Below, in pieces: positions 3,130 to 46,824 of a stretch of DNA of 64,000 nucleotides (position 1 is the stretch's first letter; every line of letters starts with the position of its first letter). The DNA is from Thiovibrio frasassiensis (GTDB taxonomy: Bacteria; Desulfobacterota; Desulfobulbia; Desulfobulbales; Desulfurivibrionaceae). Made by a program: the position numbers and the translations under genes. The stretch spans positions 2,013,530 through 2,077,529 of the forward strand of contig NZ_JAPHEH010000001.1 of the NCBI RefSeq assembly GCF_029607905.1, read 5' to 3'. Under the pieces are notes generated by a model. That model saw nothing but the letters and a program-made list of their open reading frames with translations. It was not told where the DNA came from and did not search any database.

Positions 3130-3296
3130 ACATTCGCATCAGGTCTTCTGGCTTTCGGATCGTCTGCTGGCCTGCGGCCTTCCCCCCAAGTAGAGCCTCT
3201 GGGAGTGACCGGGAAATTCCCTGTGCTGACCAGCATCCCCGATTACAGCGGCGGGACCGCCACGGATTTACACCGTGTTCCGGGATGATGCAATGT
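3130..3296 (-). promoter_or_regulatory. Cobalamin (B12) riboswitch
   Basis: Read on the reverse strand this stretch carries the ordered conserved blocks of the AdoCbl-type riboswitch: a CGGTG...AAATCCG hairpin, GCGGTCCCGCCGCTGTAA, a GTCACT core, GGGGAAGGC, and GAAGCCAGAAGACCTG at its 3' end. It precedes a terminator and then cbpA-cbpB. Expression is therefore expected when B12 is scarce. Boundaries are approximate to about ten bases. Confidence 0.92.
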
Positions 3297-39360: not shown

Positions 39361-40455
39361 TCAATCCCCAAGGCATATCCCGATTTCCCGGGCGGTGAGG
39401 ACCTTGTCGCTGTCCAGCGGCACCTTTTTTCGGCCCTTGATCGCCTCGGCCAGGGGTACGGCGATAATATCCGTGGCGGCCAGCGCCACCATGTGATCGA
39501 AGATCTCCTGCTCGGCCAGCCGCACCGCCGCGCCGCCAAAACGCAGGGCCAGCATCCGGTCGAAGGTGGTGGGCGAGCCGCCGCGCTGCAGGTGCCCCAG
39601 CACCAGGGAACGGGTGTCCTTGCCGGTTTTTTCCCGGATCTGTTGCGCCACCCATTCGCCTACCCCACCCAGCAGCACCTCCTGCCGACCCACCGCGCAT
39701 TGTTCCGTGGCCTTATGGATGACCTCGGTGTCTTTGGCCCGAGCCCCTTCGGCCACCACGACAATGGCGTAATGTTTATGGTGCAGCTCGTTGTCGTTGA
39801 TCTTGTTGCAGACCGAATCGAGGTTGAAGGGAATCTCCGGGATGAGGATGACATCGGCGCAGCCTGAGATCCCGGAGTTGATGGCAATCCAGCCGGAATC
39901 TCGTCCCATGACCTCGACCACCATGACCCGGTCGTGGGATTTGGCGGTGGAATGGAGCTTGTCAAGGGCATCGGTCGCCGTAGCCACGGCGGTGTCGCAG
40001 CCGAAGGTTCTGTGGGTGGCCTGCAGGTCGTTGTCAATGGTCTTGGGCACCCCGATCACCGGCATCCCTTTTTCCGTGGCGAAACGGTGGGCGATCTCCA
40101 GGCTGCCGTCGCCGCCCACGGCAATATGGCAGGAAAAACCCATCCTGGTGAAATTCTGCATAACCCGGTCGGAAACATCGCGGAGCTGCACCTCGCCGGC
40201 CAGGTTTTCCACCGGCATGGCGAATGGGTTGCCTTTATTGGTAGAGCCGAGGATGGTGCCCCCGGTGGGGGTGATGTCCTCAACCATCTCCGGAGTGAGG
40301 CGGACAAGTTCGTCCGGGTCAAGCAGCCCTTTGTAGCCGCCGTGACTGCCATATACCTCCCAGCCCCGGTAATGGGCGGATTTGGTCACGGCGTAGATTA
40401 CAGCGTTCAGGCCCGGGGCGTCGCCGCCGCCGGTGGATATGACAATTTTTTTCAT
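39361..40455 (-). CDS. pfkA: 6-phosphofructokinase, group III type
   Basis: A 364-residue phosphofructokinase that phosphorylates fructose-6-phosphate in glycolysis. The N-terminal loop is STGGGDAPGLNAVI, the phosphoryl-donor site is GGDGSLEIA, the catalytic region is PKTIDNDLQATHRTFG, and MGRDSGWIA and GHLQRGGSPT follow. The donor residues are glycine at the position equivalent to E. coli G104 and lysine at the position equivalent to G124. This mixed pattern occurs in both ATP and pyrophosphate enzymes, so the donor is uncertain. The start at 40455 is preceded by GAGG; an extra in-frame start lies at 40476. Confidence 0.93.
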   Translation of the reverse strand: MKKIVISTGGGDAPGLNAVIYAVTKSAHYRGWEVYGSHGGYKGLLDPDELVRLTPEMVEDITPTGGTILGSTNKGNPFAMPVENLAGEVQLRDVSDRVMQNFTRMGFSCHIAVGGDGSLEIAHRFATEKGMPVIGVPKTIDNDLQATHRTFGCDTAVATATDALDKLHSTAKSHDRVMVVEVMGRDSGWIAINSGISGCADVILIPEIPFNLDSVCNKINDNELHHKHYAIVVVAEGARAKDTEVIHKATEQCAVGRQEVLLGGVGEWVAQQIREKTGKDTRSLVLGHLQRGGSPTTFDRMLALRFGGAAVRLAEQEIFDHMVALAATDIIAVPLAEAIKGRKKVPLDSDKVLTAREIGICLGD

Positions 40456-40561
40456 CTGTTCGGCCTCGTATACCAACGGAGAAAAGAGTTCTGTTCTTTG
40501 GGGGAAATTCTTTCTTTATTTATAGCGTGAATCGCCCGGAGCGTAAAACAAAAAACCAGCC

Positions 40562-40590
40562 TTGACTTATGGGTCTATATTTCTTAATTT
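40562..40590 (+). promoter_or_regulatory. Candidate promoter of the HesB-like selenoprotein gene
   Basis: TTGACT (40562-40567) and TAATTT (40585-40590) are spaced by 17 bases, about 95 bases before the start codon. The surrounding words (CTTGACT and GGGTCTATAT) partly recall Rrf2/IscR-type operators, which would fit an iron-sulfur assembly gene. This is not firm. Confidence 0.45.
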
Positions 40591-40683
40591 ACTACATAAG
40601 AAAAAGCTGAAAATCCATTTTTCTTGCCGGCCTCCTAAAGCCGGATATTTTTTTATGAACCATTTTGACGAGGAGATCATAGG

Positions 40684-41031
40684 ATGCTTGAAGTAACAGA
40701 GCAGGCGGTTGTCAAACTGAAAGCGTACCTGGCCGATAATAATATCGATTCTGCCGTACGTGTAGCCTTAATGCAGGGTGGCTGAGCAGGCCCCTCTTTG
40801 GGATTGGCTCTGGATGAGCCAAAAGAAAATGATGCGACGTTTGAACATGGCGGGATTAAATTCCTCCTCGACAATAATCTCAGCAATCAGTGTGGGGTCA
40901 TCAAAGTAGACTTCATCGAGGCCGGACCCCGTTCCGGTTTCGGCATCTCCTCGGCCAAGCCTCTCGGCGGCGGTGGCGGTGGGAGCTGCGGCAGTTCGTG
41001 CGGCAGCGGCGGTGGTTCCTGCGGGGGCTGA
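40684..41031 (+). CDS. IscA/HesB-like selenoprotein (in-frame UGA read as selenocysteine)
   Basis: A 115-residue iron-sulfur carrier-like protein whose codon 34 is TGA (40783-40785). Without readthrough the product would stop at 33 residues. With it, the whole IscA/HesB fold is continuous: MLEVTEQAVVKLKAYL, then VALMQGG-U-AGPSLGLALDEP, TFEHGGIKFLLD, and VDFIEAGPRSGFGI. Selenocysteine replaces the first of the three conserved IscA cysteines. C70 and a glycine-rich tail with C102, C106 and C113 supply other possible ligands. GAGGAG precedes the start. A SECIS-like hairpin follows the UGA, and selB lies 4 kb downstream. A HesB-like selenoprotein family has been described before in related bacteria. 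Confidence 0.9.
40783..40822 (+). promoter_or_regulatory. UGA codon and bacterial SECIS-like hairpin
   Basis: After the TGA at 40783-40785 a perfect 7-bp stem (TTGGCTC 40804-40810, GAGCCAA 40816-40822) closes a five-base loop TGGAT. The loop G at 40812 lies 27 bases after the UGA, within the range usual for bacterial SECIS elements, which SelB must bind. Confidence 0.82.
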
Positions 41032-41054: not shown

Positions 41055-41086
41055 AAAAAAACCCTGGCTCCGGCCGGGGTTTTTTA
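41055..41086. terminator. Bidirectional terminator between selenoprotein and cytochrome genes
   Basis: An eight-base stem (ACCCTGGC against GCCGGGGT with one wobble, four-base loop) is flanked by A residues on the left and T residues on the right, so it can end both convergent transcripts. Confidence 0.82.
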
Positions 41087-43279: not shown

Positions 43280-44242
43280 ATGTCGAAGTGCAGCAGTGGA
43301 ACCTGTGGCAGTAAAAAAGCGAGTGGCTGCGGCTCCGCCGATGCGGCGGTGGCCCAGCAGAATACGGCAATCGCCGCCTCTCTGGATCGGATCAAGAATA
43401 AGATCCTGGTGATGAGCGGCAAGGGCGGGGTCGGGAAGTCCACCGTCTCGGTAAATCTGGCCTTGGGCCTTGCCGGCAAGGGATACAAGGTCGGCCTCAT
43501 GGACGTTGACCTCCACGGTCCGGATATCGTCCGGATGCTCGGCATGCATGGCCGGATGGACGGCGAGCTTACCAAGGACGGCAAGATGCCTCCCCTGGAA
43601 TATAACAACAAGCTCAAGGTCATCTCGCTTGAAAGCATGATGGAGAACCGGGACGATCCCATCATCTGGCGCGGTCCCCTGAAGAATCAGGCGATCCGCC
43701 AGTTTATCGCCGATGTGAACTGGGGCGATCTGGATTATTTGATCATCGATGCCCCCCCCGGCACCGGGGATGAGCCCATGACCGTGGCCCACACCATCAA
43801 GGATGCCAAGGCCCTGGTTGTGACCACCCCCCAAAATATTGCCCTGGCCGATGTGCGCAAGTCCATCAATTTTTGCAAGCACGTTTCCATGCAGATCGTC
43901 GGCATCGTCGAGAACATGAGCGGCTTTGTCTGTCCGCACTGCGACAAAACGGTGGATATCTTCAAGACCGGCGGCGGCGAGGTCTTGGCCACGGAGTTTT
44001 CCGTGCCCTTTCTCGGCCGGATTCCTGTTGACCCCAGGGTGGTTATCGCCGGGGATGACGGCAAGCCCTATCTCTCTTCCGGCGGGACGAGCCCTGCTGT
44101 TCAGGCCTTTGAAGCCTTTCTGGCCAAGGTGGAGCAGGAGCTTCCGGTCAGGACTGCGGCCGCCTCCATTCCCATGGCCAAGGCTGGATCGAGCTGCGGC
44201 TGCGGCGGGGGGCCATGCAACCCAACCACCTGTGACTGCTGA
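43280..44242 (+). CDS. mrp: Mrp/NBP35-family iron-sulfur cluster carrier ATPase
   Basis: A 320-residue P-loop ATPase that carries Fe-S clusters to apoproteins. The deviant Walker A GKGGVGKST lies near residue 47, followed by LMDVDLHGPDIVRMLG, the DYLIIDAPPGTGDEP motif and the CPHC pair at the dimer interface (about 216-219). The N-terminus (CSSGTCGSKKASGCGS) and C-terminus (SSCGCGGGPCNPTTCDC) are both cysteine rich, as in many anaerobe versions. GGAGGTG precedes the start at 43280. Confidence 0.92.
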   Translation: MSKCSSGTCGSKKASGCGSADAAVAQQNTAIAASLDRIKNKILVMSGKGGVGKSTVSVNLALGLAGKGYKVGLMDVDLHGPDIVRMLGMHGRMDGELTKDGKMPPLEYNNKLKVISLESMMENRDDPIIWRGPLKNQAIRQFIADVNWGDLDYLIIDAPPGTGDEPMTVAHTIKDAKALVVTTPQNIALADVRKSINFCKHVSMQIVGIVENMSGFVCPHCDKTVDIFKTGGGEVLATEFSVPFLGRIPVDPRVVIAGDDGKPYLSSGGTSPAVQAFEAFLAKVEQELPVRTAAASIPMAKAGSSCGCGGGPCNPTTCDC

Positions 44243-44253
44243 GGTTTTTGAAT

Positions 44254-44892
44254 ATGATTGTCAAACAGTTGACCGTGGGTTCCATGGCAGTCTGCTGCTA
44301 TGTGGTGGGCTGCGAGGAGACAAAGAAGTGCGGGATCATTGATCCCGGCGGCAACGAGGAGAAGATTCTCGCCCTCTGTCGGGCTGAAGGGCTCAGCGTT
44401 GAAATGATTCTCTGCACCCACGGCCATCCGGATCATGTTTGCGGCAACGCTGTGATCCAGAAGGCCACCGGCGCCCCCATCCTCATGCATGCGGCGGATG
44501 CCGAGTTTTTTGCCCGGCCGGAGATCATTGACTATTTCTCCATGCTCGGCCTGCCCCCTTCGCCGCCTGCGGACCGGACCGTAACCGATGGCGAGGAAAT
44601 CCTCATCGGCAAACTCACCCTGACCGTTCTCCATACCCCTGGGCATACCCCGGGCGGGATCTGTTTTTACGGGGCGCCCCATCTGTTTACCGGCGACACC
44701 CTCTTTGTCGAAGGGCTGGGGCGGACCGATTTCCCCGGCGGCGACAGCAATCAGCTGCTGACTTCCATCCACAAGAAGATCCTGGCTTTGCCCGAGGAGA
44801 CCGTGGTCTGGCCGGGGCATGGCTATGGCGGCGCCAAATCCACCGTGGGCGAAGAGGCTCGCCACAACCCGTACCTGAAAGGGAACTGGTAG
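44254..44892 (+). CDS. Metallo-beta-lactamase-fold hydrolase, glyoxalase-II-like
   Basis: A 212-residue MBL-fold protein. The binuclear metal motif is [12 protein letters not shown], with later ligands in [17 protein letters not shown] and WPGHGYG. The family includes glyoxalase II and persulfide dioxygenase-like enzymes. In anaerobes its substrate is usually unknown. It lies between mrp and selB with gaps of 11 and 3 bases, so all three are probably co-transcribed. Confidence 0.88.
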
Positions 44893-44895
44893 CAG

Positions 44896-46824
44896 ATGCG
44901 GGAGATTGTCCTCGGCACGGCCGGCCATGTGGACCACGGCAAGACCAGCCTGGTCCGAGCCCTTACCGGCATCGACACCGACCGGCTCAAGGAAGAGAAG
45001 AAGCGGGGCATCACCATCGAGCTCGGCTTCGCCTTTCTTGATCTGCCCTGCGGCCATCGCCTCGGCATCATCGATGTGCCCGGGCACGAACGCTTTGTGA
45101 AAAACATGGTGGCCGGCGCCACCGGCATTGATCTGCTCGCCTTTGTCATTGCGGCGGACGAAGGGATCATGCCCCAGACCCGAGAGCATTTCGAGATCTG
45201 CCGTCTGCTCGGGGTGAAACGGGGGCTGGTGATCCTCACCAAGAAAGATATGGTGGATGCGGAGTGGCTGGAGCTGGTGCGGGAGGATGTCCGCCAGTTT
45301 CTGGCTGGCAGTTTCCTGGAAGACGCCCCCATGGTCGCGGTTTCCTCCACCACCGGCGAGGGACTCGACGAGGTCCGCGAGGTTCTCGACACCCTGGTGC
45401 GGGGCAGCGAGTTTTCCGAGGCCCATGGCCCGTTTCGGCTGCCGGTGGATCGGGTTTTCAGCATGAAGGGGTTCGGCGTAGTGGTTACCGGCACCTCCAT
45501 CTCGGGCCGGATCGGAGTGGGCGAAGACATCACTGTCTATCCCCAAGGGCATACCGCCAAGATCCGCGGCATTCAGGTGCACGGCCAGGATGTGGAGCTG
45601 GTCGAGGCGGGCAAGCGTACCGCCATCAACATCCAGGGGTTGGACACCGAGATGATCAGTCGGGGCAACATGCTCGCTACCCCAGGAACCCTTGCCCCCT
45701 CCTTTCTTCTGGACGGAGATTTTTTCTATCTCTCCGGGAACGCCAAACCTCTCAAGAATCGAAGCAGGGTGCGGATCCACATCGGCACCGCCGAGATCAT
45801 GGGTCGGGTGGTGCTCCTGGAGGATGAGGAGCTGCTCCCGGGCAATCGGGCCAACGTGCAGCTCCTGCTTGAGGAGCCCTTCGGCGCCTGGCCCGGGGAC
45901 CGCTATGTGGTGCGGAGCTATTCGCCGGTGGCCACCATCGGCGGCGGCGGGATCTGGAACGGCTCCCCGCCCAAACGGCGCCGCTTTAAGGAAGCGAACA
46001 GCGAGATCTTTGCCCTGTATCAGGAAGGATCCGCCGAGGATATCTCCCTCCTGCATTTGAAGGAGGCCGGGGTTGTCGGACTCACCTTCGATGCGCTCTG
46101 CGTCAAAATGGGGCAGTTCGGCAAGCGTTTCCGTAAGCTGCTCGACGGGCCTATCTCCAGCCGGAAGATCATCATGGTCGATTCCGATCGGCAGCGCATG
46201 ATCGCGGCGGAAACCTTCGAGGGGATGAGTGCAAAGTTGACCAAGATCCTGGCCGATTTTCACCGGGACAATTCGATGAAGCCGGGCCTCTCCAAGGAGG
46301 AGCTGCGTTCCAGGCTGCATCATGACCTGGATCAGAGACTTTTTCAGCTCTTGCTCAATACCCTGGTCAAGCAGGGGACCATCGCGGTCGAGGAGTCCGT
46401 GGTCAGGCTGGCGGATCATCGGGTATCGCTGAAGGCGGACGCCCAGGATATCCGTGCCGAAATGGAGTCTTTTTACGGCGAGGCGGGGCTGACACCGCCC
46501 ACCGTGCGCGAGGTGCAGGAGCGTTTTGCCAAGTATCCCGGCCCCTTGGTGCGTGAGGTCCTTGAGTTGCTGGTCCGCGAGCAGGTGCTGGTCAAGATCA
46601 GTGAGGATCTCTATTTTCTGGGCCGGGCCATCACCGAACTGCAGGAAAAATTGGTGGCCTTCATCAAAAAGGAAGGCGAGATCGATGCCCCGCGCTTTAA
46701 AAATCTCACCGGCTTGACCAGGAAGTTTTCTATCCCATTGCTGGAGTATTTTGATAAAATCAAGGTAACCATTCGGGTTGGCGATCGCCGTCTGTTGAGG
46801 GAGACTCGGTCATCGGCACAATAA
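44896..46824 (+). CDS. selB: Selenocysteine-specific elongation factor SelB
   Basis: A 642-residue GTPase that delivers Sec-tRNA to UGA codons marked by a SECIS hairpin. The GTPase domain has [19 protein letters not shown], the selB-type [19 protein letters not shown] and [17 protein letters not shown]-Tu-like domains II and III follow, and the C-terminal third holds winged-helix repeats (about 440-640) that bind the SECIS RNA. Its presence near the selenoprotein at 40684 supports recoding. selA, selC and selD are not in the window. Confidence 0.95.

Follow-up and report, generated by a model that had tools for sequence, protein, structure and literature searches.

The window, a 64,000-nucleotide stretch of the genome of Thiovibrio frasassiensis, a relative of the sulfate reducers, to which the coordinates below refer, carries at 40684..41031 (+) a gene of the IscA/HesB family. 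Translated with TGA as selenocysteine (Sec), the gene encodes a protein of 115 aa, with Sec34 (codon at 40783..40785, +) in a UAGP motif. A second UGA, at 41029..41031 (+), is the stop codon, and 77 of the 99 homologues with Sec also end on TGA. The reading frame and the in-frame TGA at codon 34 were as an earlier note on this DNA had described them. That note had also expected automated calling to split or lose the gene; an ordinary list of open reading frames (≥50 aa) does hold, in this frame, only the fragment following the TGA (40798-41031, 77 aa, TTG start). The TGA is followed by a stem-loop at 40804..40822 (+), by the Cys70 codon (40891..40893, +) and by a flexible Gly/Ser/Cys tail with C102, C106 and C113 (40966..41028, +).

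The start codon is preceded by a Shine-Dalgarno-like GAGGAG (40670..40675, +), invariant in 15 aligned same-genus leaders. Further upstream, a promoter-like TTGACT-N17-TAATTT (40562..40590, +) was read by eye in the alignment of the upstream region; a consensus promoter scan did not report it. Terminator-like hairpins were found in the leader (CCGGC/GCCGG and a T run, 40627..40654, +) and 3' of the gene (41066..41081, +). The terminator scan of the whole stretch gave three sites, against 1.3 in shuffled sequences, so that for the leader hairpin it is the conservation that counts, not the scan. The leader of this gene (40595-40683) and those of the 16 same-genus relatives examined hold a hairpin whose stem has 5–7 bp, four or more of them G-C; its loop varies, and a T run comes after it, ~40 nt ahead of the start codon. 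The leaders were searched one by one, because loop gaps in their alignment shifted the 3' arm out of register. A similar hairpin was found in L054, from another genus, and none by the same search in L055-L060. Since the same-genus sequences are close, the conservation of the hairpin counts moderately. One possible reading is that it represents an attenuator.

Head-to-head with the gene lies a 6-phosphofructokinase gene (39361..40476, −; TIGR02483, 440.9 bits). Of 14 Sec-gene loci taken from further families in the order, 12 also had a phosphofructokinase gene nearby, in one case 2.3 kb away and with ORFs in between. At the other two loci it was not found within the stretch examined, which for one of them included just 853 bases upstream. 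Seven neighbours of the gene were scanned, and none belonged to a resistance or transport family. Elsewhere in the window there is a cobalamin riboswitch (3143-3281, minus strand, 68.3 bits).

Selenocysteine machinery

The earlier note had named the absence of selA, selC or selD from the genome as an argument against selenocysteine. All three are present, as is selB, in a genome of 2.84 Mb that is 95% complete. The selA match scored 616.5 bits and the selD match 378.1 bits, the latter gene having one in-frame TGA of its own. At the selD locus (L069) a stem-loop was predicted after this TGA. The tRNA-Sec (selC) scored 72.5 bits, with a cut-off of 47; twelve further matches were below the cut-off, and matches also occurred in all 14 control genomes, five of these over the cut-off.

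The gene for the Sec-specific elongation factor, selB, is inside the window (44896..46824, +; TIGR00475, 375.9 bits, cut-off 242.25), 3.9 kb downstream of the IscA-like gene. It is part of a stretch (43280-46824) of tightly packed Mrp/ApbC-type, MBL-fold and SelB genes, in which the Mrp protein is rich in Cys at both ends, resembling the tail of the IscA-like protein. Within the genus, linkage of the gene to selB was seen in seven loci (L040-L043, L046, L047, L052). It was not seen in L044, L045, L049 and L053, where the stretches reach 4.8 to 6 kb past the gene; in the genome of L049, selB is ~8.4 kb from the gene. The linkage to selB is looser than the pairing with phosphofructokinase. In a class search covering 257 genomes, many of them incomplete, SelB was over the cut-off in 214.

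Family membership and distribution

The read-through protein matched the NCBIfam model NF038090 (IscA_HesB_Se) with 143.1 bits (cut-off 85) over residues 1–102, which places it in this family. The match to PF01521, over residues 2–82, barely reached the cut-off (26.6 vs 26.3 bits). Both matches run across the TGA, confirming that homology continues beyond it, and the comparison of homologues likewise showed protein conservation past this codon. The protein was below the cut-offs of TIGR00049 and of the IscA, SufA and ErpA equivalog models. It was also below that of TIGR01911 (HesB_rel_seleno; 39.5 vs 66.35 bits) and therefore belongs to the NF038090 branch.

In its own taxonomic family, the TGA was present in a match from 25 of the 27 genomes searched; 24 of these matches exceeded the cut-off, and the remaining one was a fragment at a contig end. 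One of the two further genomes had a fragment that the contig end cuts off ahead of codon 34, and the second had no more than a weakly matching protein of the canonical IscA-like type. In the class search, whose 257 genomes all belong to one order, 228 had an NF038090-type match over the cut-off, and both TGA copies and stop-free copies were present among the matches listed. The 29 named loci were mostly from Deltaproteobacteria or Desulfobulbaceae assemblies, the three far ones being from Bacilli, Anaerolineales and an archaeal assembly. The relative in the Bacilli assembly (L066, 2114-2392 of that locus) carries a TGA at the corresponding position, and its C-terminus has a short CC where the tail would be. 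Its scores are below the cut-offs of both NF038090 and TIGR01911, so that it falls between the two.

From the fetched loci we obtained 143 distinct gene matches, of which 132 were kept (99 Sec, 33 Cys) and 11, with scores below 120 bits, were dropped. All 132 kept homologues had either TGA (99) or a Cys codon (33) at position 34. One far relative outside the kept set, the second match in the archaeal L068 (33 bits), seems to have neither. Cys70 is found in 98 of the 99 Sec homologues and in 22 of the 33 Cys homologues. The Gly/Cys tail, taken earlier for an oddity of this gene, turned out to be a trait of the whole family: all 99 Sec homologues have three or four Cys in a Cys-rich tail that follows the last strand.

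The bacterial SECIS stem-loop

The element at 40804..40822 has stem arms at 40804-40810 and 40816-40822, enclosing the 5-nt loop UGGAU (40811-40815). The 7-bp stem and the G-containing loop were as previously proposed, but not the distance of 27 bases from the TGA: counted from the UGA, the stem begins after 18 nt and the loop after 25 nt. A review, in its available text, lists for bacterial SECIS elements a loop of 3–9 nt, an upper stem of 4–16 bp and a G at loop position 1 or 2. The same text gives a UGA-to-loop spacing of 16–37 nt and a minimum free energy of ≤ −7.5 kcal/mol. The element agrees with all these values, the fold of the stem region having a minimum free energy of −15.4 kcal/mol for 48 nt.

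The fold energy of the single sequence was unremarkable, with z values of −0.70, −1.19 and −2.47 in three windows, and with 49, 23 and 3 of 200 shuffles as good. Rfam, at gathering scores, gave six matches in the window, none of them to a SECIS family, which we take as no evidence either way. Because folding of one sequence was indecisive, the Sec genes were compared with the Cys genes. Codons +8, +9 and +11 after the Sec codon, which form the stem tip and the loop, were GCT, CTG and GAG in all 99 Sec genes, with zero synonymous change, and codon +10 was GAT (95) or GAC (4). Cys genes with the same residues vary at these codons (GCT in 4/24, CTG in 17/31 and GAG in 12/25). Relatedness does not account for the freeze, as elsewhere in these Sec genes the codons for Ala, Leu and Glu do vary (entropy of 1.67 bits at Ala +1, 1.79 at Leu +5 and 0.94 at Glu +20).

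The inner five stem pairs could form in 99/99 Sec genes vs 1/33 Cys genes. For all seven pairs, 673 of 693 cells were filled in the Sec genes, and 105 of 231 in the Cys genes. The loop in the Sec genes was UGGAU (95) or UGGAC (4). Changes within the stem mostly preserved pairing: Pro CCA to Ser TCA, in ten genes, gives a G-U pair, and in one Sec gene both sides changed, with T-A replacing G-C. The basal pair was open in 19 of the 99 Sec genes and the next pair in one. In minimum-energy folds of 52 nt, the inner five pairs were kept in 67 of the 99 Sec genes; in the other 32 they were replaced by other pairings, often with bases just past the UGA. When nt 19–45 were folded alone, 97 of the 99 reached −7.5 kcal/mol or lower. 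The best evidence for a selenoprotein is the RNA, with its stem-loop codons that are frozen in Sec and not in Cys genes. These codons also map the bases that the cognate SelB probably requires.

Sec and Cys forms

The genome carrying the window also encodes a Cys paralogue of the same protein family (L039). Among the matches listed, a TGA copy and a stop-free copy were close on one contig in G062, G070, G071, G072, G074, G090 and G095. Adjacent Sec and Cys copies within one genome were observed in L073, L089, L139, L141, L057, L060 and L085. On a tree of 131 rows and 111 columns, in which 62 of 126 inner branches were open, parsimony counts seven or more switches between Sec and Cys, of which well-supported branches force only two. 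The Cys copy in L082 has TGC and an intact SECIS inner stem; that in L073 has TGC and one stem pair broken by a GAG to GAA change. From their sequences, both seem to have arisen recently from Sec copies. For Desulfitobacterium hafniense, a figure legend in PMC1794560 had already described the remnant of a SECIS in a HesB-like gene with Cys.

The Cys paralogue L039 sits behind HdrA-type and MvhD/FlpD genes. An HdrA/MvhD-type arrangement was found in four of the 12 Cys-gene regions fetched (L182-L184, L186), and a large gene lies upstream in another four (L179-L181, L185). In L179, whose large gene was the sole one scanned, it had flavin, Fe-S and molybdopterin-oxidoreductase domains, which we read as formate-dehydrogenase-like from the sequence. 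Two Cys copies beside phosphofructokinase were present in L189, and in L187, L188 and L190 none of the genes named above adjoined the Cys copy. L188 and L190 had an ORF 33–35% like an unnamed ORF near L039. The Cys paralogues behind Hdr/Mvh or large-enzyme genes are possibly dedicated Fe-S helpers.

Predicted structure

A structure model based on an alignment of 22 sequences had a mean pLDDT of 81.8. It was confident for most of residues 1–90 and disordered from residue 96 on (pLDDT <50), with Sec34 in a stretch of lower confidence (block 31–40, mean 75). Its best PDB matches in Foldseek were E. coli IscA, SufA and the [2Fe-2S]-bearing IscA 1x0g, with E values of 1e-7 to 1e-6, and the predicted model thus has the IscA fold of A-type carriers. 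When the protein is aligned to PDB 1nwb and to E. coli IscA, residue 34 falls on their first conserved Cys, which agrees with the earlier placement of the TGA at the first cluster-binding Cys.

A-type carriers have three Cys ligands, the last two as a C-terminal CxC. The protein in the window has Sec34 and the tail cysteines C102, C106 and C113, without a CxC. The Gly/Ser/Cys tail occupies the place of the C-terminal CxC of IscA, and its last 13 residues are beyond the NF038090 match. A canonical A-type protein with a C-terminal CGCG is encoded elsewhere in the same genome, so the protein with Sec is an extra copy.

Proposed function and alternatives

As judged from sequence comparison, it is almost certain that the gene product is a selenoprotein of the IscA/HesB selenoprotein family, a strongly supported assignment. 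The reading of codon 34 as Sec in place of the first Cys, put forward in the earlier note, is supported, neither the homologues nor the sel genes having contradicted it. We propose that the stem-loop immediately 3' of the UGA at codon 34 brings in SelB carrying Sec-tRNA, so that ribosomes decode this UGA as selenocysteine, and that the UGA at the end terminates the protein. The RNA element is evident from its conservation; that SelB does the decoding we infer from the sel genes present and from precedents in bacteria. In the opposing view, the TGA would be a genuine stop, would stem from a sequencing error, would mark a pseudogene or would specify another amino acid; in its favour is the terminal codon, likewise a TGA, which functions as a stop. 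This view is very hard to reconcile with the TGA that 25 of the family's 27 genomes have at this codon, with protein conservation that persists after it, with a stem-loop that is frozen in the TGA copies and varies among the Cys copies, and with the complete Sec machinery in the genome, and we give it next to no weight. We reject a stop, another amino acid and a pseudogene in view of the Sec/Cys exchange and the TGA-specific stem-loop.

From its predicted fold, the protein most likely works as an A-type carrier of Fe-S clusters (or iron). The selenolate of Sec34 would take the place of the first Cys ligand, and the flexible tail would supply the other ligands and pass the cluster on, perhaps with the assistance of Cys70. 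Sec would probably be a faster-exchanging or more easily re-reduced ligand. Both the carrier function and the Fe-Se ligation are suggested by the modelled fold and the ligand position. Taken as a whole, a selenoprotein and A-type carrier with a selenolate cluster ligand seems to us somewhat favoured, at slightly better than an even chance. Counting for a carrier are C70 in 98/99 and three to four tail Cys in 99/99 Sec genes, as well as the Cys regions behind HdrA/MvhD-type genes (4/12) or behind a large gene (4/12). Counting against it are the looser tail that replaces the compact CxC of IscA, and the gene's own neighbour, a phosphofructokinase and not an Fe-S assembly gene. The marginal PF01521 score, the TIGR00049, IscA, SufA and ErpA scores below their cut-offs, and the alternative pairings in 32 of the 99 folds of 52 nt also weigh against this explanation as a whole.

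A different role for the same selenoprotein would be that of a redox protein, in which Sec34 would cycle by forming a selenenylsulfide to either Cys70 or one of the tail cysteines. The retention of these cysteines in the Sec genes (C70 in 98/99, tail Cys in 99/99) suits this role, and the available text of PMC13188914 considers most uncharacterised selenoproteins to be probably redox proteins, which also counts against a carrier. Yet the motif is UxGP, neither UxxC nor CxxU, the predicted fold is that of IscA/SufA and not thioredoxin-like, and Sec34 matches the position of a cluster ligand. We regard a redox protein as possible, if rather unlikely. Sec34 and the Cys-rich tail might also form a soft-metal site unrelated to Fe-S clusters, for instance for stored iron, mercury, arsenic or selenide, as the several soft ligands in a flexible tail would allow. 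The seven scanned neighbours without a resistance or transport family do not fit such a site, and the phosphofructokinase neighbourhood, kept across families of the order, better fits a housekeeping gene; we consider this improbable. Against the A-type carrier also stands the archaeal HesB-like selenoprotein, whose function was called unclear and whose mutant was said to be unimpaired in nitrogen fixation, in the available text of PMC11097638.

Building on the A-type carrier, we tentatively sketch a broader picture, which as a whole is doubtful: a natural Fe-S carrier with a permanent selenolate ligand, kept across the order, the tandem Sec and Cys copies of some genomes maybe being swapped by selenium supply and the same-genus leader hairpin maybe attenuating transcription on selenium or Fe-S status. 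What selenium does at the metal-ligand site of a carrier-like fold, and not in a classical redox motif, is the question that the gene poses. Since the order offers both Sec and Cys forms in nature, in several cases adjacent within one genome, this role is directly testable. The value of the gene is that of a test case, the selenoprotein itself being of a catalogued family. Worth following are the repeated Sec/Cys exchange with tandem pairs, the pairing with phosphofructokinase, the leader hairpin, and the Cys paralogues by Hdr/Mvh genes.

Comparison with known systems

The earlier note was right in recalling that HesB-like selenoproteins had been described in surveys. In the available texts, Table 1 of PMC1794560 counts 11 of them, PMC1914089 includes DVU_1382 of Desulfovibrio vulgaris, and UxGP is listed as their motif in PMC13188914. 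Methanococcus maripaludis has a HesB-like selenoprotein that is reported to have been identified through mutagenesis together with 75Se labelling (PMC11097638, available text); its function was called unclear, and nitrogen fixation was said to be unimpaired in a disruption mutant, given as an unpublished observation. With these survey entries and the archaeal 75Se report, the gene in the window belongs to a known kind and is an additional member of an already catalogued selenoprotein family. In the literature searched, of which coverage was partial, we recognised no mention of a Sec-ligated A-type carrier or of tandem Sec/Cys HesB pairs.

With the HesB-like selenoproteins of the surveys, as far as their available texts describe them, the protein in the window shares the relation to HesB/IscA, the UxGP motif and the Deltaproteobacteria hosts. 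It differs in belonging to the NF038090 branch and not to TIGR01911, the model to which reviews, in their available text, tie the HesB-like selenoprotein family. The M. maripaludis protein, likened here by its published description, is also an IscA-related selenoprotein, but the archaeal SECIS is of another kind. The match to NF038090 IscA_HesB_Se runs through the Sec position, and nothing in the protein excludes membership. With IscA, SufA and ErpA the protein has the predicted fold and the first ligand position in common, and it differs from them in having Sec for Cys and the tail for the CxC.
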